From positions 1 through 34,404 of IMG/VR virus record IMGVR_UViG_3300020293_000036: a DNA stretch of 34,404 nucleotides; one strand, 5' to 3'. The notes under the pieces were generated by a model, which did not search any database, was not told the origin of the DNA, and worked only from the letters and a program-made list of their open reading frames with translations. Below are positions 1,021-23,483 of this stretch, piece by piece (the stretch's first letter is position 1; every line of letters starts with the position of its first letter). A program made the position numbers and the translations under genes. Origin of the DNA: a virus.

Positions 1021-2310
1021 TTAACGAGCTCTTCCAGCCTTCTTCTCTAACTCGTTAGTTCTCCATTGTTGAGCTATTTTGTTTTTAGGAAAAGAGGTTG
1101 ACCAAGACATCATTTTTGTGAATAAAGCTTTTGTTTTACTTTTTAGAGTTGCCAAGTCATCGTCATTTGACAATGATACAAAGTCTCTTTTAAATAAAGA
1201 TTTTAGTTTACTTGCATTCTTTTCTACAGCTTCCCAGTCCTTTTCTACAACTTGAGGTGGGAGTTTTCTAGGTCTCATTTCATTTCTCTTTTGTGCATTA
1301 TCTAAACTTGTTCTTACATATATCATTTTAGATTCATAACCTAATACATCTAACATTTTCTTATAGTTTTGTATTTTACTTATTTTTGCAGAAGTTGTAT
1401 CAAATACTAAACCTAGTCTTCCACCTATGTATCGGTCTAGTTGATTACCTGTAATTTTCTTTGCTTTAGTTCGAATCGGGTCTCTGACATCAGCAGGTAA
1501 TTTTCGTAAGTCTAGAGATAATCCAGCTTTCTTTAGTCCAGTCTCAAAAGCTTTATCTGAATTGATTAACTTAAGACCTAATGCCTTAAATCCTAAATCA
1601 TCTACAACTGTAGATTTACCACTGCCTGGGCCACCCATAAGGAATACTGCTTTAAAGGTGCCTGGGTCATAAACACCTTCGGCAATCAAATCTTCCATCA
1701 TATAATGTGGTAGTGTTCCCTCTGTAATACCCATTCCTTTTCTGACTGCTTTATATAACTGTTTTTTTGCACCACTATTAGACGAAGGGACACCTTTTGC
1801 AAACTCTTCGAAGTTTCCGTCCTCTGCATACTGTCTCATTTTACTTGCAGACATTCCTGATACATCGTCTGCATCGGGGTCTCTCTCACCAGCTGATACA
1901 ATATTAATCTCTTTAAATTTGTAGTATCCGTGTCTTGCTTTGACTCCGTTGTATTTGGTCAAAAGGTTCTCAAACTCTTTAACTCTATCAGAACCTACAA
2001 CCATATTGATATGTGTATATCCTTGTTTGTGTAATTCATTTGCAATCTCAAATACAGTTCTGACATTTGCATCTACAATAATCCTTCCAAAGAATTTACG
2101 AAGAAATTTTACCTTATCTCTGTGATTTAGTGGGTTTTTTCTTTTGTCATTAGAATGAGAAGAGAAAATCATAGTATCTGTTCCCGAACCTAATGATTTT
2201 AATTTCTTAACTAGTAATGCATGACCTGTGGTAGGTGGATTGAATCGACCAAAAGAGAATGTTGCCTCTTTGTCTTTTTTCTCTGTTAAAAAGGTTTGTA
2301 ATGTTTTCAT
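1021..2310 (-). CDS. Bifunctional nucleotidylyltransferase / P-loop kinase-like protein
   Basis: This 429-aa protein has two domains. Residues about 17-165 form a nucleotidylyltransferase of the cytidylyltransferase/NMN-adenylyltransferase fold, with the (H/G)xGH-type motif GRFNPPTTGH at 21-30 and a C-terminal SxxxxxR-like motif (SGMSASKMR, 151-159). Residues about 220-400 form a P-loop kinase with Walker A GGPGSGKST (226-234). NadR and related NAD-salvage enzymes have this adenylyltransferase-plus-kinase architecture, but the substrate here is not established. I chose the ATG at 2310, which overlaps the upstream stop as TAATG, over a TTG 12 nt further upstream. Translation is probably coupled to the ligase-like gene. 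Confidence 0.8.
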   Translation of the reverse strand: MKTLQTFLTEKKDKEATFSFGRFNPPTTGHALLVKKLKSLGSGTDTMIFSSHSNDKRKNPLNHRDKVKFLRKFFGRIIVDANVRTVFEIANELHKQGYTHINMVVGSDRVKEFENLLTKYNGVKARHGYYKFKEINIVSAGERDPDADDVSGMSASKMRQYAEDGNFEEFAKGVPSSNSGAKKQLYKAVRKGMGITEGTLPHYMMEDLIAEGVYDPGTFKAVFLMGGPGSGKSTVVDDLGFKALGLKLINSDKAFETGLKKAGLSLDLRKLPADVRDPIRTKAKKITGNQLDRYIGGRLGLVFDTTSAKISKIQNYKKMLDVLGYESKMIYVRTSLDNAQKRNEMRPRKLPPQVVEKDWEAVEKNASKLKSLFKRDFVSLSNDDDLATLKSKTKALFTKMMSWSTSFPKNKIAQQWRTNELEKKAGRAR

Positions 2311-3512
2311 TATTTGTCCCAATTCTTCTGTGCAGTGAAGTTATTGAATGCAAACTCCATTCTATCTACGAGTTTTACTGCACTTCCTTTTTTGTCTATT
2401 GCAACATAACCTTCGGGATTCACTGCTTCGAATCCGTTATCTGTCTTTTTGAAGGTTCCTATACTCTTTACTCTATTTAGGACATTTATAATCATTTGTT
2501 TGGCCTCTACTAAATGTCCCATAAATTTTGTTAGATTATCTATTAGTTTTTTTAGAGACCTCATTTCGTTGTAAATCTGTTCACCAATTTCTCTTTTGAT
2601 TTGTTTAGTCTTCTCTGTTTTTACTTTACCTACAACTTTGTCTCTCCAGTATATTTCGAAGTATTTCATATAATCCACATACGAAGGATTATATTTTCCT
2701 GCCCTTATGAGTGAATTACAATATGTTTTATAACTTGCACCAGCTCCTTTTTTACCAATTGCACCTTGTAATTCCATGAACTTCTGTAAATCATTTCTTT
2801 TGATTCCGTGAAATGCTTTACCTGCCTTTGATAAAGCTCCAGTCAATGCAAGAGTTTCTTTTGCAGTCATAGAACCTTTACCACTTACATCTTTATAACT
2901 TGCATCGTCAATCCATACATCTGAACTACTTCCTAGTTTAGATATGTTTGCACCAAAACTTGCAGATAGACCCTCTATATCTGAACCTGTATATGTTGTA
3001 TGAAAAACAATACCCATTTTAGACCTTGCAATCTCTTTTCCTAAATCTGAATCTACTTGAACTGCATATAAAATTGTATTTGGTTGAAATGTTATGAAAG
3101 ACTCATTACCTATCTTTGTCATTTTTGTATCGTCTGTATACATTAAATCACCTTGCATGATTGTATTCCAAGATAATTTAGATAGGTATTTGTATGCAGT
3201 CAGAAACTTACTTTTTAATTCACCCGATAGTTCCTCTGCATTTTTGATTTCTGATTCGGAAGTATAATATAGGGGGGTCTTGTTAAATAATGATTTCTTT
3301 GCAACAAAGAATTGACCAGTCTCGGGGTGTTGACCACAAAAAATAGCAGGAGCTCCGTCCCACTTTACTGTCATATTTACACCCGAGGTTGCATTACCTT
3401 TTAACATATCACGAAGACCTTGCATAAAGTTTATTGCACCACGACCACCGTCAATTCCTTGATTGATGATTTCGTCCTCTATATGTTCTAGATGTAAATT
3501 CTTTGCAGCCAT
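2310..3512 (-). CDS. Putative nucleotidyltransferase/ligase-like protein with a KxDG motif
   Basis: This 400-aa protein belongs to no family I can name with confidence. It contains KWDGAPAI (K50-W-D-G53), which matches motif I (KxDG, the adenylated lysine) of the covalent nucleotidyltransferase superfamily of DNA/RNA ligases and capping enzymes. Candidate later motifs follow in the right order: an AKKS element at 71-74, QGDLM at 120-124 (like motif III) and MGIVFHTTY at 166-174 (like motif IV). A Lys-rich segment at about 295-310 could hold motif V. The gene is coupled to the nucleotidylyltransferase-kinase, so nucleotide or nucleic-acid end chemistry is plausible. Ligase activity is inference. 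Confidence 0.6.
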   Translation of the reverse strand: MAAKNLHLEHIEDEIINQGIDGGRGAINFMQGLRDMLKGNATSGVNMTVKWDGAPAIFCGQHPETGQFFVAKKSLFNKTPLYYTSESEIKNAEELSGELKSKFLTAYKYLSKLSWNTIMQGDLMYTDDTKMTKIGNESFITFQPNTILYAVQVDSDLGKEIARSKMGIVFHTTYTGSDIEGLSASFGANISKLGSSSDVWIDDASYKDVSGKGSMTAKETLALTGALSKAGKAFHGIKRNDLQKFMELQGAIGKKGAGASYKTYCNSLIRAGKYNPSYVDYMKYFEIYWRDKVVGKVKTEKTKQIKREIGEQIYNEMRSLKKLIDNLTKFMGHLVEAKQMIINVLNRVKSIGTFKKTDNGFEAVNPEGYVAIDKKGSAVKLVDRMEFAFNNFTAQKNWDK

Positions 3513-13250: not shown

Positions 13251-14283
13251 CTAAACTCCCGTGTTTGTCTTTGTTATGTGGCCCAATCGGATTCTCTGAT
13301 TTACCACCGATACCCATTGTTGCAACATGTTCATCACAATATGCAACACATGAAAGTCTTACTCCGTTTCCACGAATAGGTGTGACCCCATGTAATTCAT
13401 TTGAATCTGCAATCAATACATCACCATCGTCAGCTTCGATTGCAAGACCGTATCTAGGAAAACATAAATTTGCACCTTTAAAATCTCCAATTCTAAAAAC
13501 ACACATTGTTGTCATTCCAAATTCTAAATCTTTACCGTCTACATGTGCAGACATTTTTGCAGTCCCTTCACTAGAATATCTGTTTGCAGATAAAGCTGTG
13601 ATAGGTGCGCCCCCGATATGATACTTACTTTCAATATAGTTATCGGCAAAGGCTCTCTGCCTTCTCCATATATCGGGAGCTGCGACTTTTAATGCACCTT
13701 CATTGATAGGTGCAATGTTCTGTAATACTTCCATCTTCGGAATGTTCCCTTTCTTTTCCATCCAACCACTTGGTTTTATCATTCCAGTAAATCTTCCTCT
13801 CTTGTATCCAATCAATACAGAATGTATTGCATTTGATTCTGCAATACGATTGAACTTACCATTCTTTTTAAGTGGATAGTAAGAGTTAGGTGTTCTTAAT
13901 TTGTAATGGACTCCTTCAATCAATCCTTTCTTTTTCATTTCTTCGGGGTCGATTGGCCCAGCTGCATTTGCTCTCATTGTCGATACATCATCTATGGAGA
14001 ACAAAGTGTCTTTTATATTCTGATACATGTCTCCAGTATACTCACCTTTTACAATATATGCAAGTGGTGGTCTATCTCCGTCTATAGAAGCAACTGGTTT
14101 AGATACTTTTATTACCTTCTCATTTACTCCTATTGAAGATACTAAAGTATCATAGTCCGATTCGTCTAACCATTTACCGTTAAACTGTTCGTGTGTTTCT
14201 TTATATCCTAAATCTTTTTCTGCAACGAATTCCATGGTTCTAATATTTGTTTTTTCACCTCTTCTACTAGGTAATATAGACAT
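13237..14283 (-). CDS. TET/JBP-type 2OG-Fe(II) dioxygenase (5-methylcytosine hydroxylase-like)
   Basis: The C-terminal half of this 348-aa protein is a double-stranded beta-helix dioxygenase. HVD (H247, D249) and H298 in NELHGVTPI form the Fe(II) triad, and R309 in VRLSCVAY would bind 2-oxoglutarate. The surrounding GANLCFPRYG and DDGDVLIAD fit the TET/JBP family. Phage TET homologues oxidise 5-methylcytosine in DNA made by a phage methyltransferase. The C5-methyltransferase gene overlaps directly upstream, strongly supporting that role. The start is uncertain: ATG 14283 overlaps the methyltransferase by 76 nt, and ATG 14235 would overlap by 28 nt. Neither has a strong ribosome site. Confidence 0.83.
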   Translation of the reverse strand: MSILPSRRGEKTNIRTMEFVAEKDLGYKETHEQFNGKWLDESDYDTLVSSIGVNEKVIKVSKPVASIDGDRPPLAYIVKGEYTGDMYQNIKDTLFSIDDVSTMRANAAGPIDPEEMKKKGLIEGVHYKLRTPNSYYPLKKNGKFNRIAESNAIHSVLIGYKRGRFTGMIKPSGWMEKKGNIPKMEVLQNIAPINEGALKVAAPDIWRRQRAFADNYIESKYHIGGAPITALSANRYSSEGTAKMSAHVDGKDLEFGMTTMCVFRIGDFKGANLCFPRYGLAIEADDGDVLIADSNELHGVTPIRGNGVRLSCVAYCDEHVATMGIGGKSENPIGPHNKDKHGSLDGFF

Positions 14284-15467
14284 AGTGGTGCAACCATAAG
14301 TCCTATCCTTGCACCTTTGTCATTATAATCACCTGTCATTTTATAATCATTTGGTAAAGACATAAGTCTCACCATCTCCTTTGGAGTATATATTCTCTTC
14401 CCACTATAATGAAAATGATTACCACCCATAAACTTTGGTTGACAACCTTGTTCTGTTAGTGAATGAGCTGGAAGATTTTTTGGAACAATCCTTGACATAT
14501 AATAAGAATGTTTTTCATTCTCGGGTGGAATGTTTCCTAGTCTTATATTCTCTTGATACCATGGTTTTACAATATGGTCTCCTATAGAAATATAAGACAT
14601 GTTATCTCCGTTTACTCCGTCAATCCCTTTACAGGGAGTGCAGTGTGATAGTTCGGGGTCGGGGTGCTTTTCAAATCCATGCACCCAATGACCTTTTGAA
14701 CTATCAATCATTGCCTGTTCTAGATATTTTGCATCTTCGATATTTTCGGGGTCGTCCTGTAAATCGTCAATGGCTTCACCTATACTTGTTCTTTCTTCAC
14801 TTGGTTGTGGAAACAATCCACTCAAACACATGAATGGCATTCCTATTGCATCTAATACATCGTCTCTGACACCAACCATGAATACTCTTTCTCTTTTTTG
14901 TGGAACTCCATGTTCATGTCCTTTCATAACTTTCCATGTGACTGAATAACCTAATGCTTCAAAATCGTTTACCATTTTGTTTAGGTGGTCTCTTGCATAA
15001 TCCATGGATAGACCTTTTACATTCTCACATATAATAACTTTAGGCATTAAGTCTTTTGTGATTCTAATTTGTTCCCATGTCAAGTCTTCGATATTTTGTT
15101 GTTTCATACCGTATGCAATTTTCTCTTGTTCCCAACCTTCTCTTTTAGTTCCAGCCATACTGAATGGTGGACAAGGTGGAGAACCGTCAAGAATATCTAA
15201 CTCAAACTTTTTGAGTCCAGTAAGTTCCATGATATTTTCACCAGTGACTTGTTTGATATCTTTACACTCATGAACTGTATTTGGAAAATTCTTAAGATAG
15301 GTGTCTACATGAATCTGTTGAAACTCATTCATGTATCTTACATCACCACCTGCGAGTTTATATGCACACGATGAACCACCACCGCCTGCAAAAAATGTTA
15401 TATAAGAAAATTTCTTTTCGGAACTGCGTTCCTGTAGGTCTTTTAAACTGTATTGAAAGTAAGTCAT
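14208..15467 (-). CDS. DNA (cytosine-5) methyltransferase
   Basis: This 419-aa enzyme transfers methyl from SAM to cytosine C5 in DNA. Motifs in order: I (TFFAGGGGSS, 24-33), IV with catalytic C99 in SPPCPPFSMAG, VI (CENVKG, E148), VIII (QKRERVF, 190-196), a target-recognition region at about 210-340, and C-terminal motifs IX-X (ARIGLMVAP). Motif IV reads PCPPFS instead of the common PCQPFS. A sigma70-like promoter ends 6 nt before the ATG. It is followed by a TET-type dioxygenase, so its 5mC product is probably an intermediate, not the final modification. Confidence 0.94.
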   Translation of the reverse strand: MTYFQYSLKDLQERSSEKKFSYITFFAGGGGSSCAYKLAGGDVRYMNEFQQIHVDTYLKNFPNTVHECKDIKQVTGENIMELTGLKKFELDILDGSPPCPPFSMAGTKREGWEQEKIAYGMKQQNIEDLTWEQIRITKDLMPKVIICENVKGLSMDYARDHLNKMVNDFEALGYSVTWKVMKGHEHGVPQKRERVFMVGVRDDVLDAIGMPFMCLSGLFPQPSEERTSIGEAIDDLQDDPENIEDAKYLEQAMIDSSKGHWVHGFEKHPDPELSHCTPCKGIDGVNGDNMSYISIGDHIVKPWYQENIRLGNIPPENEKHSYYMSRIVPKNLPAHSLTEQGCQPKFMGGNHFHYSGKRIYTPKEMVRLMSLPNDYKMTGDYNDKGARIGLMVAPLCLYYLVEEVKKQILEPWNSLQKKI

Positions 15468-16085: not shown

Positions 16086-16496
16086 TTAAGAAATTTTTAT
16101 AGAGACTGGTTTATCCTCATCGGGGATAATTCTCTCTAAACTAACTTTCAAGATACCGTCTTTTAGACTTGCACCACTGATTTCTACATCATCTGCAAGT
16201 GTAAAACTTCTCTTGAATCCTCTAGAAGCTAATCCCTTGTGGACAAAGTCCTTGGATTCGTCTTCTATCTTACCCTCAATAACAAGGACATTTTTCTCTT
16301 TAGTGATAGAAACATCTTTCTTACTGAACCCAGCCACTGCAAGTTCAACGGTGAAGTGTTCATCGTCTTCCTTTACAACATTGTAAGGTGGGTAGTTAGT
16401 TTGTGTAATATTTGACATTCTTTCGAGGTCTTCGAAATACCTATCAAATCCTATTGCGAACGGTCTGAATTGACCAAATATATCTAAATGCGTCAT
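16086..16496 (-). CDS. hsp20: Small heat-shock protein Hsp20 (alpha-crystallin family)
   Basis: This 136-aa ATP-independent holdase chaperone has an N-terminal segment (DIFGQFRPFAIGFDRYFEDL) like IbpA. The alpha-crystallin domain at about 35-125 contains ELAVAGFSKKDVSIT, LVIEGK and GFKRSFTLAD. The C-terminal VSIKIS tail includes the short I-x-I type motif. Hsp20 genes are common in marine T4-like phages. The ATG has an AAGGAG site just upstream and two overlapping promoters, one sigma70-like and one late. It is the first gene after the cyclase/curli operon. Confidence 0.94.
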   Translation of the reverse strand: MTHLDIFGQFRPFAIGFDRYFEDLERMSNITQTNYPPYNVVKEDDEHFTVELAVAGFSKKDVSITKEKNVLVIEGKIEDESKDFVHKGLASRGFKRSFTLADDVEISGASLKDGILKVSLERIIPDEDKPVSIKIS

Positions 16497-16567: not shown

Positions 16568-16597
16568 ATTATATGGGGTCAAACTATAAAAAGTCAA
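16568..16597 (-). promoter_or_regulatory. Sigma70-type promoter upstream of hsp20
   Basis: The minus strand has -35 TTGACT (16597-16592, preceded by GCC), an 18-nt spacer and -10 TATAAT (16573-16568). The -35 overlaps the stop codon of the 116-aa membrane protein gene. The leader to the hsp20 ATG carries an AAGGAG ribosome site. Confidence 0.75.
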
Positions 16598-16944
16598 GGC
16601 AGTTTTTGGCAATTTTTTTTTGCACGATTCAAAACTATATTATTGTTTACTATGACTAACATCATCATTTTGTTAACACCACTCATAGTTTGTTTGGTAA
16701 GAGAGTTATTTTTTGTATCATATTGAATAGTTGGTGTAAGAACTATAGTTTTCCATGCAAACATTTTTGGAACTGTAGGTCTATCTCCTAGGAAAGGATT
16801 CATTTCTTTTACACACCTGTATTTGATTCCACGGTGTGTAGTATAGATATCTACAAGTTGTAAAGCTGCAAAGGTATAGAGTTGTCCGTCAGTGTATTGT
16901 TCAACAAGTGTATATTGTGACTTTCTCTGACTTTCCCTTAACAT
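16594..16944 (-). CDS. Small membrane protein, 116 aa
   Basis: The start at ATG 16944 gives 116 residues. An extension to 17208 would lie entirely inside the cyclase gene and is rejected. The central part (YTFAALQLVDIYTTHRGI...MNPFLGDRPTVPKMFAWKTIVL) matches a pattern seen in small phage and bacterial membrane proteins: a helix with LQ-DxxTT, an Asn-Pro-Leu-Leu-Gly-like element, then a second helix. A third hydrophobic stretch near the C-terminus (MMMLVIVNNNIVL) is followed by basic residues. It overlaps the cyclase gene by 44 nt, so it is probably the last gene of the curli operon. Confidence 0.65.
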   Translation of the reverse strand: MLRESQRKSQYTLVEQYTDGQLYTFAALQLVDIYTTHRGIKYRCVKEMNPFLGDRPTVPKMFAWKTIVLTPTIQYDTKNNSLTKQTMSGVNKMMMLVIVNNNIVLNRAKKNCQKLP

Positions 16945-18739
16945 GTATTGAGTCGACTTCCACGAATTCTCTTGTTGGACAGCATTGATAAGTTCTTTCC
17001 GATAACAACAAGTCCACCCCATCATAATTCCTTGTTTGGCCTTCGAGTCTAGCACCCAAGTTGACGGCGTCTCCAATGACGGAATAGTCAAATCTAACTT
17101 CTGACCCCATGTTTCCGACAATACATTCTCCTGTGCTGATACCAATGCCGACATTGATAGGAGGAAGATTGAGAGGAGCGAGTTCCTTATTAAGTTCTTT
17201 AGTTGCATCTAACACCTCCAGTGCAGATTTTACAGCGAGTTCAGCATGGTCTTCACAATCCAAGGGAGCATTCCAAAAACTCATGATACAATCGCCCATA
17301 TATTTGTCTATGGTTCCTTTATTATTTATTATTATTTTAGTTTGGACATCTAGGAACTTGTTTATCAAGTCTACTAATCCTTCGGGGTCGTCTTTATTTT
17401 TATAAGCTTCGCTTATAGGTGTGAACCCACAGATATCCATGAACATGAATGTCATTTCCTTTCTTTCTCCACCAAGTCTCAATTTTTCAGGATTCTTGGC
17501 CAGTTCGTCAACCATGTCGGGAGATAAATATTTTTGGAACTGTTTCTTAATTTGTTCTTTGAGTTGATAGGTTCTATAGTATTTGTTGAAAGAAGCATGT
17601 CCGAAAACAACTATGGAGGCTATCGATGAGTAGAAAATATCGAAAAGAACGAGAGATGAAGACCACAAATAGAGACCCCCACCCACCTGAAATCCTACGA
17701 CACCTAGACTCACTATCCCCGAGTAAATTGTGGGAAGTTTGTAGACCACTCCCAATATTCCTAGAAGGACTATCAGAAGAAGAACGAGAGATAGAAATTC
17801 AAGATAGTAGGATTGTTGTATTTGAACTCCTGTGGAGACGGAGTGGAGGATATTCCCTTGAACTTCGTGGGGATACATTACACCCACTGGGGTTGAAACT
17901 GGATTATTCAGACCCTCCGCGGTCAGACCCCAAACAAGAATCTTACCCTGAATATTTGAATTAGATAAATCGGCTGCTGATATTCTGTCAAAATCATTCC
18001 AATATGAAATCATAACATCAGCAGTCGGAGTTGTTTCTATAGGTGGATTCCTTCCTATACGAATCCACTCTATTCCAACTTCGGGAGTCACTCTAGTTTG
18101 ATAATTCTTTTGGTCAAACATTGCACGCATAACCTCTAGTGCAACCGAAGGATATACAACTTCATTTGCAGAAACTATCAAAGGTGCAGAACGAACAGTC
18201 CCGTCAAAGTTTGGAGTTCCGCTTACAGCTGGTGTGGTGACCGTCACACCAACTCCATATGTGTTTTGTTTCAGGATATCAACTGGACTTGCAATACCCG
18301 AGAAGTTCCATATGTGTTCTGATATATCTCCACCTCCAAATACAGATGTCCTGACATATGGTGCAGAACCAGTATCTTTTTGAATTGTAGGTGCAGCTGA
18401 AAGTATTGTTAAACGATTTACTAATCCTTCTGCAAATGACTCGTCACCCTGAAACCTATCAGGTTCTTTGAATAATTGTGTGAATACATGTGTATTAGAA
18501 TAATGAGTTTCAAAAAGTATATCTGAATATATGTTTCTAGGCCAAGGATATTGACCATATTTTTCTAGAGATTTTTCGTCTATATCAACAAGAACTATAT
18601 TGTCTACTTGTTCTATTTCGTGTTGTTGGTGTAGAAAGTCAAACCATGACCATGTGATATTTTCTACTAGATATGGATTCCAAACTTTAAGACCGAAGAG
18701 CAACCCTATAGTCACTAGGACTGTCTTCCAAGAATACAT
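16901..18739 (-). CDS. CHASE2-domain class III adenylate cyclase
   Basis: This 612-aa membrane enzyme should make cAMP. An N-terminal TM helix (about 5-20) leads to a periplasmic CHASE2 sensor domain (about 30-300; VDNIVLVDIDEKSL, YPWPR). Three TM helices follow (about 310-382), then the cyclase domain (about 425-605). Catalytic residues look intact: metal-binding D435 (FMDICGFT) and D483 (KYMGD), adenine-selecting K479 and D551, and transition-state N560 and R564 (DAVNLGARLE). K plus D at the selecting positions favours ATP over GTP. The ATG overlaps the curlin-like gene's stop as TAATG, with AAGGGA before it. Such an enzyme is unusual in a phage. Confidence 0.92.
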   Translation of the reverse strand: MYSWKTVLVTIGLLFGLKVWNPYLVENITWSWFDFLHQQHEIEQVDNIVLVDIDEKSLEKYGQYPWPRNIYSDILFETHYSNTHVFTQLFKEPDRFQGDESFAEGLVNRLTILSAAPTIQKDTGSAPYVRTSVFGGGDISEHIWNFSGIASPVDILKQNTYGVGVTVTTPAVSGTPNFDGTVRSAPLIVSANEVVYPSVALEVMRAMFDQKNYQTRVTPEVGIEWIRIGRNPPIETTPTADVMISYWNDFDRISAADLSNSNIQGKILVWGLTAEGLNNPVSTPVGVMYPHEVQGNILHSVSTGVQIQQSYYLEFLSLVLLLIVLLGILGVVYKLPTIYSGIVSLGVVGFQVGGGLYLWSSSLVLFDIFYSSIASIVVFGHASFNKYYRTYQLKEQIKKQFQKYLSPDMVDELAKNPEKLRLGGERKEMTFMFMDICGFTPISEAYKNKDDPEGLVDLINKFLDVQTKIIINNKGTIDKYMGDCIMSFWNAPLDCEDHAELAVKSALEVLDATKELNKELAPLNLPPINVGIGISTGECIVGNMGSEVRFDYSVIGDAVNLGARLEGQTRNYDGVDLLLSERTYQCCPTREFVEVDSIHVKGKSEKVTIYTC

Positions 18740-19461
18740 TAGTTCCCTTGAGATACACTAACTGAACAACCACCAACTGTATAACAATTTTGAGTTATAC
18801 TATATGATTTATTATTCCAACCATTTTGATATACAGTGATATCAGTTGGTTGTGTTCCATTTAGTATGACACTCATATAATGGTCGCCTGAATTTGTTTG
18901 TCGAAGGTCGACTTCATTGTTGTCGTTATAGATATCTAAATTAATATATTGACTTCCACCTTCTCTTTGAACTGTGTAGATATCGTTATTATCTCCTTCT
19001 AGGTGCAACCAATATTGGTGGCCAGAAGAAGAACTGTTTGTTCTTTGTGTCATAAGAACATCATTATAATCACCTGTAATGTTTATGTGTGCAAATGTAT
19101 TTCCGTATTCTGAATTATCTATAGTAAAGTTTCCGTTAGTTCCAACTTGATATCCTTGACCAAGTTTTAAAGTATTTCCGTCTCCCCAAACTCTACGAAG
19201 TTCTATGATATTTTGACCTGTTCCATTACCTCTATCTCTAGCTTGTTTTATAATAACAGTATTGTCGATACCGTCTATTCCTTCTGAAGCAGTCCACTGT
19301 TTAACAACATTACGGTATCCTATTTGAGTTATATCGAGTTCGAAGTTATTACCTTCTTGTTTGATTGTTATTTCGTTGTCGTCTGCGAAAACCATAGGGA
19401 GTGACAATGTCACTCCCGTTATAATTCCTAATATTAATAATAATCTTTTTAAAATATCCAT
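18739..19461 (-). CDS. Curlin-like repeat protein (secreted), 240 aa
   Basis: A signal peptide (residues 1-26, hydrophobic core LLLILGIITGVTLSLP, cut near VFA-DD) precedes beta-repeat sequence. Repeats contain polar Gln/Asn and Gly with curlin-like spacing, for example ITIKQEG..FELDITQIGYRN, GDNNDIYTVQ and YNDNNEVDLRQ. Two Cys lie near the C-terminus (NCYTVGGC). The N-terminal mature sequence closely matches the second curlin-like protein at 20727-21467, so they are paralogues. Curlins are secreted through CsgG and polymerise into amyloid fibres; csgG and csgF in the same operon support this. Identity as a CsgA-type or CsgB-type subunit cannot be decided. Confidence 0.82.
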   Translation of the reverse strand: MDILKRLLLILGIITGVTLSLPMVFADDNEITIKQEGNNFELDITQIGYRNVVKQWTASEGIDGIDNTVIIKQARDRGNGTGQNIIELRRVWGDGNTLKLGQGYQVGTNGNFTIDNSEYGNTFAHINITGDYNDVLMTQRTNSSSSGHQYWLHLEGDNNDIYTVQREGGSQYINLDIYNDNNEVDLRQTNSGDHYMSVILNGTQPTDITVYQNGWNNKSYSITQNCYTVGGCSVSVSQGN

Positions 19462-19595
19462 GACAATAAAAACACAACTACAATACCTTTAACAAAGGCA
19501 AACCACATTGCTTGATACTCTGTTATTTGTAGTCTTTCTATCCACTTATAAGTCAAATCTTCATGCCAGTCCCAAATTTTTCTTAATAAGTCCAT
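19449..19595 (-). CDS. Small membrane protein, 48 aa
   Basis: ATG 19595 to TAA 19449 encodes 48 residues beginning MDLLRKIWDWHEDLTYKW. It has an amphipathic, Trp-rich N-terminal half and a C-terminal hydrophobic helix (MWFAFVKGIVVVFLLSWIF). A strong AGGAG lies 7 nt before the start. The end overlaps the curlin-like gene by 13 nt, so it sits inside the curli operon between the FecR gene and the second subunit. It may be a small inner-membrane accessory. No family was recognised. Confidence 0.7.
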   Translation of the reverse strand: MDLLRKIWDWHEDLTYKWIERLQITEYQAMWFAFVKGIVVVFLLSWIF

Positions 19596-19618
19596 ATATT
19601 TCTCCTGTAAATAAGTAT

Positions 19619-20773
19619 TTAGTTAGATTGATTAATGAAGATTTGTATTGCGGGGTCTCCATTCCCAAATTCAATGATACCTTCATATCCTTCAACTCTA
19701 GTATCTATGAATCCTGAATTACCATTTTGTATGATAATCTCAATGACTCCATTTACTTCTCTAAAGAATACTAAATTCCCGTCTTCCTCAAATACATTAT
19801 ATTGTGAATCTTTGTTGAATCCAAAGATTGCACCCTGTAAATTTACTCCTCCAGTTGTTGCCTGTTTATCTGCAAGAGAAGCTGTTGTCCTAGTTAATTC
19901 TTCCACAACATCTAAAACATCTGTTAAGAAGTCTACATCTAAAAAATCTATATCTAATCTACTACCCCTTGCATCATAATCGGGGTCATTTGCATAGTCG
20001 TCATAGTCTTTTTCTAGTTCATTGAACTCTAAAAAGTCCACATCTAACACCCCTTGGTCATCATTCATATCTTCTCTAGCCTGCTCTTCTACGGCCTCCT
20101 GAACCTCCGTAGGCGGTGCTACAATGAACATATTGTCTATCATAGAGGTTGTTAGGTTGTTGATTACTACTGACCCTGTAGGTGGTGTTTCTATGGTTGA
20201 CACCATGGTTGCCTGATACGCTTGATTGAGAGTGACACTTCCACCCTCATTTGATACAACTATCTCTCCCGAAGGTGTGACTCCGTCTTCATCAGGAAGC
20301 AGAATTACCAATGTTCTTCCGAGTTCGTCTATAGTTGTTGTAAAATCTGTGCCGTTGATAGCAATTTGTGCTGTTGGTGTGCTGATATCTATATTTGCTT
20401 TCTTTATTTTTTGACCTTGGCCCGAAGCAAAACGGGCGGTTCCTTGAACCATTCTCAAGGACATTTTTGATAGTGAAGGATTTGGGTCGTAATAGACCTC
20501 GTCTATAAAAACTAATGTGTGTTCTATTAAGTCTAGGAATTCTTTGTCAAGGAATTGTATTTTCATTCTTCCATTGACTGTTTCAGCAGAGTCGTATAAC
20601 TCTACACCATATCCAACTGAATGTGGTATGGTTTCATTGTTTCGAACTATCTGTCCGATACCTGTGGATTCAACGATGTCTCCAATGGGGTCAGCAAACC
20701 CGACCCCACTGATGAACAATAAAAAACTAACTATCGTTAGCTGCGTCTTTCTGATTGATTTGAATAACTGCAT
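19619..20773 (-). CDS. FecR-domain secreted protein, 384 aa
   Basis: A signal peptide (about 1-27, ending GVGFA-DP) is followed by a FecR-type domain (about 30-165): IGDIVESTGIGQIVRNN, the GVELYDSAETVNGRMKIQFLDKEFLDL core, and PTAQIAINGTDFTT. After a Ser/Thr linker comes an acidic region with repeated LDVDFL units (LDVDFLEF, LDIDFLDVDFL), then a C-terminal beta segment. FecR domains act in envelope signalling and are often encoded beside CHASE2 cyclases in bacteria. That pairing is reproduced here, so it may regulate or feed the cyclase sensor. I chose ATG 20773 over GTG 20779. The gene overlaps the upstream curlin-like gene by 47 nt. Confidence 0.85.
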   Translation of the reverse strand: MQLFKSIRKTQLTIVSFLLFISGVGFADPIGDIVESTGIGQIVRNNETIPHSVGYGVELYDSAETVNGRMKIQFLDKEFLDLIEHTLVFIDEVYYDPNPSLSKMSLRMVQGTARFASGQGQKIKKANIDISTPTAQIAINGTDFTTTIDELGRTLVILLPDEDGVTPSGEIVVSNEGGSVTLNQAYQATMVSTIETPPTGSVVINNLTTSMIDNMFIVAPPTEVQEAVEEQAREDMNDDQGVLDVDFLEFNELEKDYDDYANDPDYDARGSRLDIDFLDVDFLTDVLDVVEELTRTTASLADKQATTGGVNLQGAIFGFNKDSQYNVFEEDGNLVFFREVNGVIEIIIQNGNSGFIDTRVEGYEGIIEFGNGDPAIQIFINQSN

Positions 20774-21467
20774 TATCACTTTCTATATCTAATACAATAG
20801 TTGCATCAGGTGAGGAACAAGTATTACCTGCTCCACTCACACATGTTCCTGATAACTGGTTGATATCTACATCTGCACTATCTCCAACCAAAGTGAAGTC
20901 CAATGTTTGTTCTCCATCTTTTTGAAGTGTGTTAATGTTATTAGAATCACCTGTTATTTCAAAGTCCCATGTCAAATCATCTGATTCCCAATCAACATCA
21001 AAAATGTTTGAGCTTCCGATTAATATTAAGTCGGCATTTAATCTTTCAGCTGATAAAGCATAACCTTGGTCTAGGTCAAACTGGTTGCTTGAACCTGTGA
21101 CATCAAAGTTAATGTTTGAATCATCTGTGCTACCTATATAACCGATATTCCAATCTATCTTGTTTGAGTCTCCAGTAAAATCTAATTTATAATAACTATC
21201 ATCAGATATGACTGGCCCAAATAAAATATTTGAATTACCTGCGAAATCTAAATCAAATTCTAAACCTGAACCAGTGATTGTCATTGCTGACAGTGAACCA
21301 CCACTTGCATCATCTCCACCGACTTTGTTTCCAAAACCGATTTGGTCGATGTAAAGTTTTAGTGTATCACCTTCTTGTGTGATTTTGATTTCGTTATCAT
21401 CAGTGGCTTGTGCGAAAAGATTTGTCGACAGTAATGCAATTACGCATAAACTAATTAATTTATTCAT
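20727..21467 (-). CDS. Curlin-like repeat protein (secreted), 246 aa
   Basis: A signal peptide (1-19, SLCVIALLSTNLFA) precedes mature sequence opening DDNEIKITQEGDTLKLYIDQ, nearly the same opening as the paralogue at 18739. At least six units with a G(D/N/S)SN core follow (GNSNILF, GDSNKIDW, GSSNQFDL, GSSNIFDV, GDSNNINT), spaced about 20-35 residues, consistent with a beta-solenoid. The protein is strongly acidic, unlike E. coli CsgA. Two Cys lie in the SGTCVSGAGNTC loop. It starts 8 nt inside the end of csgG, so the secretion channel and its cargo are translationally linked. Confidence 0.82.
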   Translation of the reverse strand: MNKLISLCVIALLSTNLFAQATDDNEIKITQEGDTLKLYIDQIGFGNKVGGDDASGGSLSAMTITGSGLEFDLDFAGNSNILFGPVISDDSYYKLDFTGDSNKIDWNIGYIGSTDDSNINFDVTGSSNQFDLDQGYALSAERLNADLILIGSSNIFDVDWESDDLTWDFEITGDSNNINTLQKDGEQTLDFTLVGDSADVDINQLSGTCVSGAGNTCSSPDATIVLDIESDNAVIQINQKDAANDS

Positions 21468-22353
21468 TTTCGTTATACCCCTCTATTTCCCAAAAACCTC
21501 TATCGTGTCCTTGGTATACTAATTCCAACACTGCAGCTTCAATTGCTGACCGTGTTGCATATGTCACTGATTCATTATTACCCACTCCGTCCTCGATTTC
21601 TACGAGTTGAGTTCCTTCTTCGATGAATCTAAAAACATCGCCTCCTGAACCATAACTCAAAATAGTCTTTCGAGATTGGACATTCAATAAAACTTCTCCA
21701 GTAAGAACTGATACAGCTCTCATGGAAACTGTGACAGCGTCTTGTCGATACTGTCTACTAAAACCAATACCTAGGGTTCGTGCGCCTCGTCCCCCAGTCT
21801 TGATATTAGAATCATAACCAATCAAACCACCCTCTATAATAATTCCTGCGAAGAGCAGTGGCTGAATTCCTTCATCGTCCTGTTCCATTTTCTTTGCATA
21901 ATCTGACCTTGCAGAACGAATGATTTGTCTTTCACGGACTAAATGGTCTATACCGTTTCTTTCAACGACTCTGAACCATGTCCCACCTCCAGCAGTCTTT
22001 AGTGCGTCTATAACCATTTCTGTTGCACCTTGGGTGACTGCTGTAGAGAAACTTGCAATGTTGGTCACTGACTTTCTCTGTCCTGTTTTGTCCATAAAAT
22101 TATAGACTGCAACTATAGGTTTTTCTTTTGCTGGTGGTAAATTTAATAATTCAACATAGGCTGGTAGGCTTACAACTTCGGGATTTTCGACACAAATATA
22201 TTTCCTCGATAGTTGTTTCTTAACTGCACTGTAGACATCTTTCTTGATTCCTTCGTCCCAACGACTACAGTCCTGTGGTTTTTCAGACCACTGCGGAAAA
22301 CTTGCACAACCTGACAATGCAATAACCATTGCAAGTAAACCTACTCTTAACAT
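21460..22353 (-). CDS. csgG: CsgG-like curli secretion lipoprotein
   Basis: This 297-aa homologue of CsgG (277 aa in E. coli) would form the nonameric outer-membrane channel that exports curlin subunits. The lipoprotein signal MLRVGLLAMVIALSGC places the lipid on C16. Family landmarks include PIVAVYNFMDKTGQRK, FRVVERNGIDHLVRERQIIR, the FAGIIIEGGLIGYDSNI barrel region and VTVSMRAVSVLTGEVL. It starts in a TAATG overlap with csgF and has a GGAGG ribosome site. With csgF and two curlin-like genes it forms a near-complete secretion set lacking csgE. Confidence 0.95.
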   Translation of the reverse strand: MLRVGLLAMVIALSGCASFPQWSEKPQDCSRWDEGIKKDVYSAVKKQLSRKYICVENPEVVSLPAYVELLNLPPAKEKPIVAVYNFMDKTGQRKSVTNIASFSTAVTQGATEMVIDALKTAGGGTWFRVVERNGIDHLVRERQIIRSARSDYAKKMEQDDEGIQPLLFAGIIIEGGLIGYDSNIKTGGRGARTLGIGFSRQYRQDAVTVSMRAVSVLTGEVLLNVQSRKTILSYGSGGDVFRFIEEGTQLVEIEDGVGNNESVTYATRSAIEAAVLELVYQGHDRGFWEIEGYNENE

Positions 22354-22847
22354 TAACCGCCTCCTGTATCAGGGTCTTGACCAAAGTTTCCAGTTCCTAC
22401 TGGAATCTCTACTATGGTTTCAGAACCGTCCTCTGCTATAATTGTTAACCTAATAAACTCTGCACCTGATTCGTCTGTAATAACTTCCCATGTAATAGTA
22501 TTACCTTCTAGTATGAAGGAACCAAAACCTACAGGATTATCGTTTGCAAACATAGATTCAACTAATTGTTTTGCAAATTGAGCATAGATTCGCGATTCTA
22601 AATTCCTGATAAATTTAGCAAGCGTGGTGTTATCTGCCTCTCTTTCTGCAGCTTTTCTCGCTGCCTCCAGTGCATCTTCGATTGATTTTTTTCTGCTATG
22701 TTCTTGGTTCTCAATCGTAAGATAATGTGCGCCTGTCCCTATTCCACTAAAGCTAGGGTTCTTAAACTTATGAACTATTTCGTCTGATATTACTGGACTT
22801 GATAATCCCAGTAATATTATAAATGTTAAAATATTATTTCTCTTCAT
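22353..22847 (-). CDS. csgF: CsgF-like curli assembly factor
   Basis: This 164-aa protein has a signal peptide (1-20, ending SPVIS-DE) and then the CsgF signature: a VHKFKNPSFSG stretch like the CsgF N-terminus that inserts into the CsgG pore. A helical part follows (KKSIEDALEAARKAAERE...LESRIYAQFAKQLVESMF). The C-terminal beta region contains GSFILEGNTITWEVI, typical of the family. CsgF forms a second constriction on CsgG and links nucleation to the cell surface. It is slightly longer than E. coli CsgF (138 aa). The end couples to csgG by TAATG. Confidence 0.94.
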   Translation of the reverse strand: MKRNNILTFIILLGLSSPVISDEIVHKFKNPSFSGIGTGAHYLTIENQEHSRKKSIEDALEAARKAAEREADNTTLAKFIRNLESRIYAQFAKQLVESMFANDNPVGFGSFILEGNTITWEVITDESGAEFIRLTIIAEDGSETIVEIPVGTGNFGQDPDTGGG

Positions 22848-23127
22848 TCTTTTCCTCTAAAGCTTTCTTCTCTTCTGCGTCTTCTAATAATTCCTCTTTT
22901 TCACGATATTCTAATACCGTGTTCACTTTCGACTGTAATCTAATTAAGTCGTTGTCTAACATTCTGATTTGGTCTATGAGTCTAACTAACTCTACTTGGG
23001 ATTTAGATAGTTTGGGTTTTAACTCTGTAGTTATAAACTTCCAAACGAAGTATATGAAATAACCCATGCCCAATGCAAGAACCACGGGGAACCCGAATTC
23101 TGCAATCAGTTGAGCTAACTTGTCCAT
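22834..23127 (-). CDS. Membrane-anchored coiled-coil protein, 97 aa
   Basis: A hydrophobic N-terminal helix (AEFGFPVVLALGMGYFIYFVW) is followed by a long heptad-type region (VELVRLIDQIRMLDNDLIRLQSKVNTVLE) and a highly charged Glu/Lys tail. It resembles the adjacent upstream protein (23127-23420) in layout and sequence, so the two are tandem paralogues. The true start is the ATG at 23127, which shares one base with the upstream TGA (TGATG). Possible roles include an envelope scaffold for the curli apparatus or a holin-like protein. Function is unknown. Confidence 0.7.
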   Translation of the reverse strand: MDKLAQLIAEFGFPVVLALGMGYFIYFVWKFITTELKPKLSKSQVELVRLIDQIRMLDNDLIRLQSKVNTVLEYREKEELLEDAEEKKALEEKNEEK

Positions 23128-23420
23128 CAATCTCTACGGGAATCTATCTTCTCGTCTTCAAGAAAATTCTCAGCTCTTGCAATCCTGTCTATGTCGGGTT
23201 TCAATTCTAATGCTGATGATATAAGTAAGTCTATTTTTATCATGTCATTGTTCATCATTCGAACTCTTGACTCTAGACTTCCTATGATATTTGCTAATCC
23301 AGTGACTTGTCCAACCACTGATTCCAAGATATACTTCAAAGTTAGGAATATAAAGAACGCCATTATCACAGCACTTCCTATAGGGATTCCGACTTCACTC
23401 AAAAATGTTAACATATTCAT
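23127..23420 (-). CDS. Membrane-anchored coiled-coil protein, 97 aa (paralogue)
   Basis: This is the first gene of the curli operon. MNMLTFLSEVGIPIGSAVIM opens a hydrophobic segment to about residue 33. A coiled coil follows (SLESRVRMMNNDMIKIDLLISSALE), then a charged tail (ENFLEDEKIDSRRD). R-M-M/L-x-N-D-M/L-I and the trailing ALE/VLE align with the downstream gene, indicating duplication. I chose ATG 23420 because a TATAAATA late promoter ends 5 nt before it; an upstream in-frame start at 23465 would place 15 residues over the promoter and terminator region. ATG 23414 is also possible. Confidence 0.7.
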   Translation of the reverse strand: MNMLTFLSEVGIPIGSAVIMAFFIFLTLKYILESVVGQVTGLANIIGSLESRVRMMNNDMIKIDLLISSALELKPDIDRIARAENFLEDEKIDSRRD

Positions 23421-23425
23421 ACCAT

Positions 23426-23433
23426 TATTTATA
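23426..23433 (-). promoter_or_regulatory. Late promoter TATAAATA of the curli operon
   Basis: An exact TATAAATA on the minus strand, followed by ATGGT and the ATG at 23420. It lies just downstream of a strong terminator, so the curli, FecR and cyclase genes are predicted to form a separate late transcription unit. Confidence 0.75.
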
Positions 23434-23455: not shown

Positions 23456-23483
23456 AAAAAAACACGACCCGAAGGTCGTGTTT
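23456..23483 (-). terminator. Intrinsic terminator with a UUCG tetraloop
   Basis: On the minus strand AAACACGACC pairs perfectly with GGTCGTGTTT across a TTCG loop, followed by a T run (seven T, partly in the stem). C(UUCG)G is an exceptionally stable tetraloop and common in bacterial and T4 terminators. It lies between the 87-aa membrane gene and the curli operon and should end upstream transcription. Confidence 0.93.

Follow-up and report, generated by a model that had tools for sequence, protein, structure and literature searches.

A curli-like export operon with a putative FecR–curlin hybrid protein and a CHASE2 cyclase in T4-like phages

Introduction

Why would a phage carry a curli-type export system together with signaling genes of its own? 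The question is raised by a 34,404-nt viral contig, IMG/VR record IMGVR_UViG_3300020293_000036 (positions 1 to 34,404; hereafter "the window", meaning the whole stretch analyzed), in which a minus-strand operon (23433 to 16594) encodes, in 5′ to 3′ order, two small membrane (SM) proteins (SMb and SMa), CsgF, CsgG, a curlin-like subunit (Cur1), a FecR-domain protein, a 48-amino acid (aa) membrane protein, a second curlin-like subunit (Cur2), a CHASE2 class III adenylate cyclase, and a DUF5658-like protein. The operon is one tightly packed set, with overlapping neighboring genes. A preliminary description had proposed a single late unit in a phage context containing csgF, csgG, two curlins, FecR, the CHASE2 cyclase, and small membrane proteins. 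That proposal holds: the named genes all lie on the minus strand in this region, Pfam agrees (with the second curlin just under the cut-off), and, of the small membrane proteins, two (97 and 98 aa) stand at the 5′ end and one (48 aa) in the interval between FecR and Cur2.

CsgF and CsgG have been described in pelagimyophages (Zaragoza-Solas 2020; PMC7029224) and in phage Melnitz (Buchholz 2022; PMC9004378), and the arrangement CsgF-CsgG-CsgA/B-FecR-CsgA/B-adenylate cyclase was reported in myo- and podo-pelagiphages, expressed in metatranscriptomes, with phage curli modules at all 65 GOV2.0 stations (Wittmers 2022; PMC9599517). The supposition that a FecR/CHASE2-cyclase pair in a phage operon was undescribed is thus wrong, and the operon itself is already known. 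New here are the FecR–curlin hybrid, the exchange of Cur2, the obligate SM pair, and the conserved late promoter; the text of PMC9599517 contains nothing on a C-terminal feature of FecR, signal peptides, promoters, or a variable curlin. In the same study the small gene is annotated as a histidine kinase and FecR as a ferric citrate regulator; neither label withstands testing.

Results and Discussion

The FecR protein ends in a curlin-type strand

The FecR-domain protein (19619..20773, minus strand; PF04773, E = 5.2e-7) starts with a signal-peptide-like helix (residues 2–21), and its FecR domain begins at residue 31. In the AlphaFold2 (AF2) model, the FecR domain (residues 31–191; predicted local distance difference test score, pLDDT, about 95) is joined by a weakly predicted helical linker to a confidently modeled C-terminal beta domain (residues 305–381; pLDDT about 92). 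Foldseek matches the fold to the periplasmic FecR domains of anti-sigma regulators (PupR, BDI_1681) and to a cell-surface anchoring domain (5ix9). The AF2 model shows no N-terminal anti-sigma domain and transmembrane (TM) segment before the FecR domain, and the reading of the protein as an anti-sigma iron (ferric citrate) regulator is rejected because the anti-sigma domain is absent.

The C-terminal beta domain (residues 305–384; 19622..19861, minus strand) ends in IFINQSN, a strand assigned to the curlin type by motif and profile. A strand of the form [ILVF]x[ILVF]xQ closes 215 of 216 complete phage FecRs and 70/70 representatives, where about 3% would be expected, as well as 39/39 in a second, independent set; among CsgF, CsgG, and cyclase controls the same end motif occurs in 1/207, 1/107, and 1/208. 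The final Gln is invariant across 62 aligned FecRs, and the motif is absent from the approximately 14 bacterial FecRs whose C-terminus could be seen. Pfam Curlin_rpt is nearly blind to this tail, so that motif and profile tests were used instead: against curlin repeats the tail profile scores 20.9 and 24.5, compared with 9.4 and 9.3 for shuffled profiles (0/200 reach it), and reversed and unrelated profiles fail. The end of Escherichia coli CsgB, AIRVTQR, has the same pattern as the phage FecR tail, and the fifth (last) repeat of CsgB is required for outer-membrane association (PMC4551309). As judged from these comparisons, the phage FecR may be a FecR–curlin hybrid, its tail perhaps being the way in which a sensor reads fibers.

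One curlin subunit is conserved and the other is exchanged

Cur1 (20727..21467, minus strand; PF07012, E = 3.6e-5, 24.0 bits against a cut-off of 20.7) has an all-beta AF2 model (mean pLDDT 85). It changes slowly, with a ratio of nonsynonymous to synonymous substitution rates (dN/dS) of about 0.1, and on this measure is under purifying selection. Cur2 (18739..19461, minus strand; PF07012, E = 8e-4, 19.7 bits, 1 bit under the cut-off) is hypervariable, principally in its middle, the last 20 residues being the most conserved. In the nearest relatives of the window, identities are 91–92% for CsgG, 87–91% for FecR, 85–90% for the cyclase, and 85–95% for Cur1, but just 34–37% for Cur2; more distant relatives (CsgG 78–80%) carry Cur2 proteins that are 81–82% identical to that of the window. 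Because similar alleles occur in distant backgrounds, relaxed constraint alone is insufficient, and the pattern, read from the alignments, is one of allelic exchange of a single subunit between phages. The polymorphism points to a surface-exposed role for Cur2, such as gripping neighboring host cells or excluding competing phages.

The module is conserved in viruses and was apparently assembled there

Of the first viral contigs fetched with CsgG, 40 cover the whole region, and each of these 40 has the complete set of eight core genes. In the long viral loci (CsgG-fetched and extending at least 7 kb beyond CsgG; n = 109), curlin is present in 109/109 and FecR and cyclase together in 108/109, including contigs of up to 337 kb with CsgG at 45–54% identity. 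In divergent contigs the cyclase or the SM pair is sometimes on the opposite strand. T4 major capsid, terminase, and sheath were sought in the divergent contigs, and T4-type matches were found only in the 337-kb contig (L317), the others being viral by IMG/VR class alone. Within the phage collection, the records of HTVC008M and Melnitz are the only ones with full-length relatives of the cyclase, FecR, and SMa.

FecR, cyclase, and SM genes were found in 0/74 bacterial csgG loci and in none of three annotated alphaproteobacterial plasmid loci, and FecR has no match in plasmids. A bacterial ancestor of the whole module was not found in these 74 loci or in the three plasmid loci, nor at the FecR matches from a sample of 399 Pseudomonadota genomes, where the loci are only ~3.5 kb long and neighbors are barely visible. 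FecR–cyclase pairs do occur in bacteria, separately from csgG loci. Given bacterial csgG loci that lack FecR, cyclase, and SM genes, and bacterial FecR–cyclase pairs elsewhere, it appears that phages combined two sub-modules of bacterial origin.

Export pore and cyclase

CsgF (22353..22847, minus strand) matches PF10614 over the cut-off (E = 3e-10), and CsgG (21460..22353, minus strand), an outer-membrane pore lipoprotein with the lipobox LSGC, matches PF03783 (E = 3.5e-53) and solved structures of E. coli CsgG (E = 1e-49). Between its lipobox and its core, the CsgG of this phage group has an N-terminal insert (approximately residues 20–63) that includes a conserved YICV stretch; the CsgG proteins of HTVC008M and Melnitz are without it. 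The cyclase (16901..18739, minus strand) contains CHASE2 (8.5e-29) and Guanylate_cyc (1.2e-19) Pfam domains, and its closest solved domains are those of bacterial adenylate cyclases. All 24 homologues compared share the metal-binding D435 and D483, the adenine-type K479, and R564, while the transition-state Asn (N560 in the window) is Ser in some divergent homologues. The sequence supports export competence of the module and catalytic competence of the cyclase.

Small membrane proteins and the late promoter

SMb (23127..23420, minus strand; 97 aa; phrog_18771) has a single TM segment and a coiled coil, and its paralogue SMa (22834..23127, minus strand), with the motif DxxRMLDxDxIRL, has the same architecture. 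Both are present in 248 loci and only one of them in 6, and a search with SMa only recovered the curli module in 68/70 new contigs (26/26 with long flanks); SMa and SMb are obligatory parts of the module. HisKA and HATPase domains are matched by 0/25 SMa/SMb proteins, and the "histidine kinase" of PMC9599517 at the SM position is very probably a mislabel, the identity of the gene being taken from its position and length. Against holin families, SMa/SMb give a weak match to phrog_4898 (E = 0.02) and weak matches to YvrJ in 5/25 proteins. The 48-aa membrane protein (19449..19595, minus strand) has related open reading frames (ORFs) at the equivalent place, the FecR/Cur2 interval, in many relatives; it is marked by a conserved WHE/WHR motif and a WIF-type end.

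A T4-type late promoter, TATAAATA (23426..23433, minus strand), lies 5 nt ahead of the first start codon and directly follows a hairpin with a T-run (23460..23483, minus strand) that closes the preceding transcription unit. Sites of the ATAAATA type are located upstream of the first gene in 136/169 distinct relatives, compared with 11/845 control windows. The octamer is not enriched across the window (5 observed versus 3.0 expected), so that its meaning rests on positional conservation; a chance octamer was considered and rejected, since the position is conserved among relatives. In 79/125 distinct site-bearing relatives the promoter is 4–9 nt ahead of the first start codon, with a spacing peak at ~5 nt (4–7), figures that depend on the chosen start codon. 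With the promoter so near the start codon, the late mRNA may be leaderless.

Proposed function and alternatives

The reading that we prefer, to which we give an even chance, is that of a late curli-like (type VIII) export module that belongs to the phage and brings along a sensor, with FecR contacting curlin through its tail and relaying a signal to the CHASE2 cyclase. Transcription would proceed late from the T4-type promoter; CsgG and CsgF would build an outer-membrane pore; and Cur1 and Cur2, as secreted curlin-type subunits, would assemble fibers on the infected cell, such that an infected bacterium should push amyloid-like fiber proteins through its outer membrane. FecR would be Sec-exported and periplasmic, with the FecR domain facing the CHASE2 sensor and the curlin-type strand of the tail pairing with curlin subunits, and the cyclase would convert FecR occupancy (by periplasmic subunits or ongoing export) into cyclic AMP (cAMP). 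The tail would thereby connect the amyloid and signaling halves of the module physically. A more specific version, which we advance tentatively, is an amyloid-coupled second-messenger circuit, in which the FecR–curlin hybrid reads periplasmic curlin and drives the phage CHASE2 cyclase, with the swappable Cur2 giving each phage its own type of surface fiber. The correction of two labels, iron regulator for FecR and histidine kinase for the small gene, removes iron- and kinase-based explanations.

Several results weigh against this proposal. For the FecR tail, the nominal hhalign probability against curlin is low (9–24%) because the motif is short, with clean controls; Pfam Curlin_rpt matched 1/41 FecRs, weakly; and Foldseek on FecR gave no match marking the tail as curlin. 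The Cur1 model has no significant PDB match in Foldseek (CsgA 8c50, E = 5.2). CsgE and CsgC have no Pfam match among the scanned operon proteins, two components reported as not essential in E. coli (PMC7029224). A search of six phage records for cyclic nucleotide monophosphate (cNMP)-binding proteins found none, so that a cAMP target would have to be the host's; the manipulation of host cAMP suggested in the preliminary description is possible, although this receptor search came back empty. Finally, clumping was not seen with Melnitz (PMC9004378).

The last observation also suits a different account, in which CsgG and CsgF form a gated pore that times lysis (Buchholz 2022) or takes up solutes and the curlins and signaling genes are accessory. 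The operon is led by small membrane proteins with weak YvrJ and holin-profile similarity, and the published proposal likewise rests on a predicted pore structure. A pore, however, needs neither curlins in 109/109 long loci, nor a Cur1 with dN/dS of about 0.1, nor a diversified Cur2, and we regard this account as unlikely. Of the roles raised in the preliminary description, surface amyloid is accordingly the better reading, and a pore only, for nutrient or virion traffic, is weakened by the retention of the curlins and the slow change of Cur1. The polymorphism of Cur2 speaks for a role at the surface rather than for a bare pore, and from it one would expect aggregation or exclusion to be specific to the phage type.

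Two further explanations turn on the FecR tail. FecR could be a CsgB-like nucleator or anchor, whose tail starts or holds the fiber with no sensing, while the cyclase would have an independent effect on host physiology. Such a role fits the likeness of the tail to the CsgB end (CsgB needs its fifth repeat for outer-membrane association), the overlap of the FecR gene with Cur1, its location between both curlins, and the Foldseek match to 5ix9; yet bacteria pair FecR with CHASE2 proteins without curli nearby, and a folded FecR domain should not traverse the CsgG pore, and we hold this role to be no more probable than a pore alone. Or the tail might be a periplasmic chaperone strand that replaces the missing CsgC, CsgH, or CsgE by capping curlin edges, with vestigial signaling. 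Although the operon lacks these three proteins, the cyclase has invariant catalytic residues and is retained in 108/109 loci, and we regard this explanation as improbable.

Phage context and neighboring genes

The operon is flanked by T4-like genes (clamp loader, DNA polymerase, UvsX, helicase), and the DNA polymerase is ~47% identical to homologues from cyanomyoviruses and marine single-cell viruses. A host–phage chimera, with the operon on the host side, was considered and rejected on the grounds of these flanks and the recurrence of the same gene order in many viral contigs; the contig is not chimeric. At the 3′ end of the operon, an ORF of 204 aa (16594–17208) with an apparent signal peptide was rejected as a chance ORF overlapping the cyclase out of frame. 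The true last gene is a shorter, optional ORF (about 16594..16944, minus strand) encoding a DUF5658-like membrane protein (E = 0.0018, below the cut-off), present in 74/109 loci.

Directly behind the module in the window is an IbpA-like Hsp20 gene (16086–16496), followed by a cytosine-5 DNA methyltransferase (14208–15467; TIGR00675, E = 4.8e-43). A divergent viral contig (L279) encodes a full Hsp70 (DnaK; 1402–3318) a few kb upstream of its module, and the adjacency of chaperone genes to an amyloid module may be no coincidence. Two distinct phage contigs with curli modules (L084 and L087; 121 and 142 kb) share one Sphingobacteriales metagenome-assembled genome (JAAXIF01), an assembly that also contains two T4-type major capsid genes; the two contigs are mis-binned phage DNA.

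Comparison with known systems

The phage module has CsgG, CsgF, and curlin-repeat subunits in common with bacterial curli (csgBAC-csgDEFG in E. coli; csgH-csgF-csgG in Alphaproteobacteria). Unlike bacterial curli, no CsgE, CsgC, CsgD, or CsgH was found in it, and FecR, the CHASE2 cyclase, and SMa/SMb are added. In Ensifer and Ruegeria an exported FecR-domain protein adjoins a CHASE2 cyclase, as in the phage, whereas the bacterial FecRs tested are without the curlin-type tail. The BiofilmReg operon of Burkholderia combines FecR with a CHASE2 kinase in biofilm control (PMC5192318), and the CHASE2 cyclases of S. meliloti answer a protein signal via the outer-membrane barrel NsrA (PMC13001267). 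Among phages, HTVC008M (NC_020484) and Melnitz (MZ577097) have the same genes in the same order as the window, preceded by one or two small genes.

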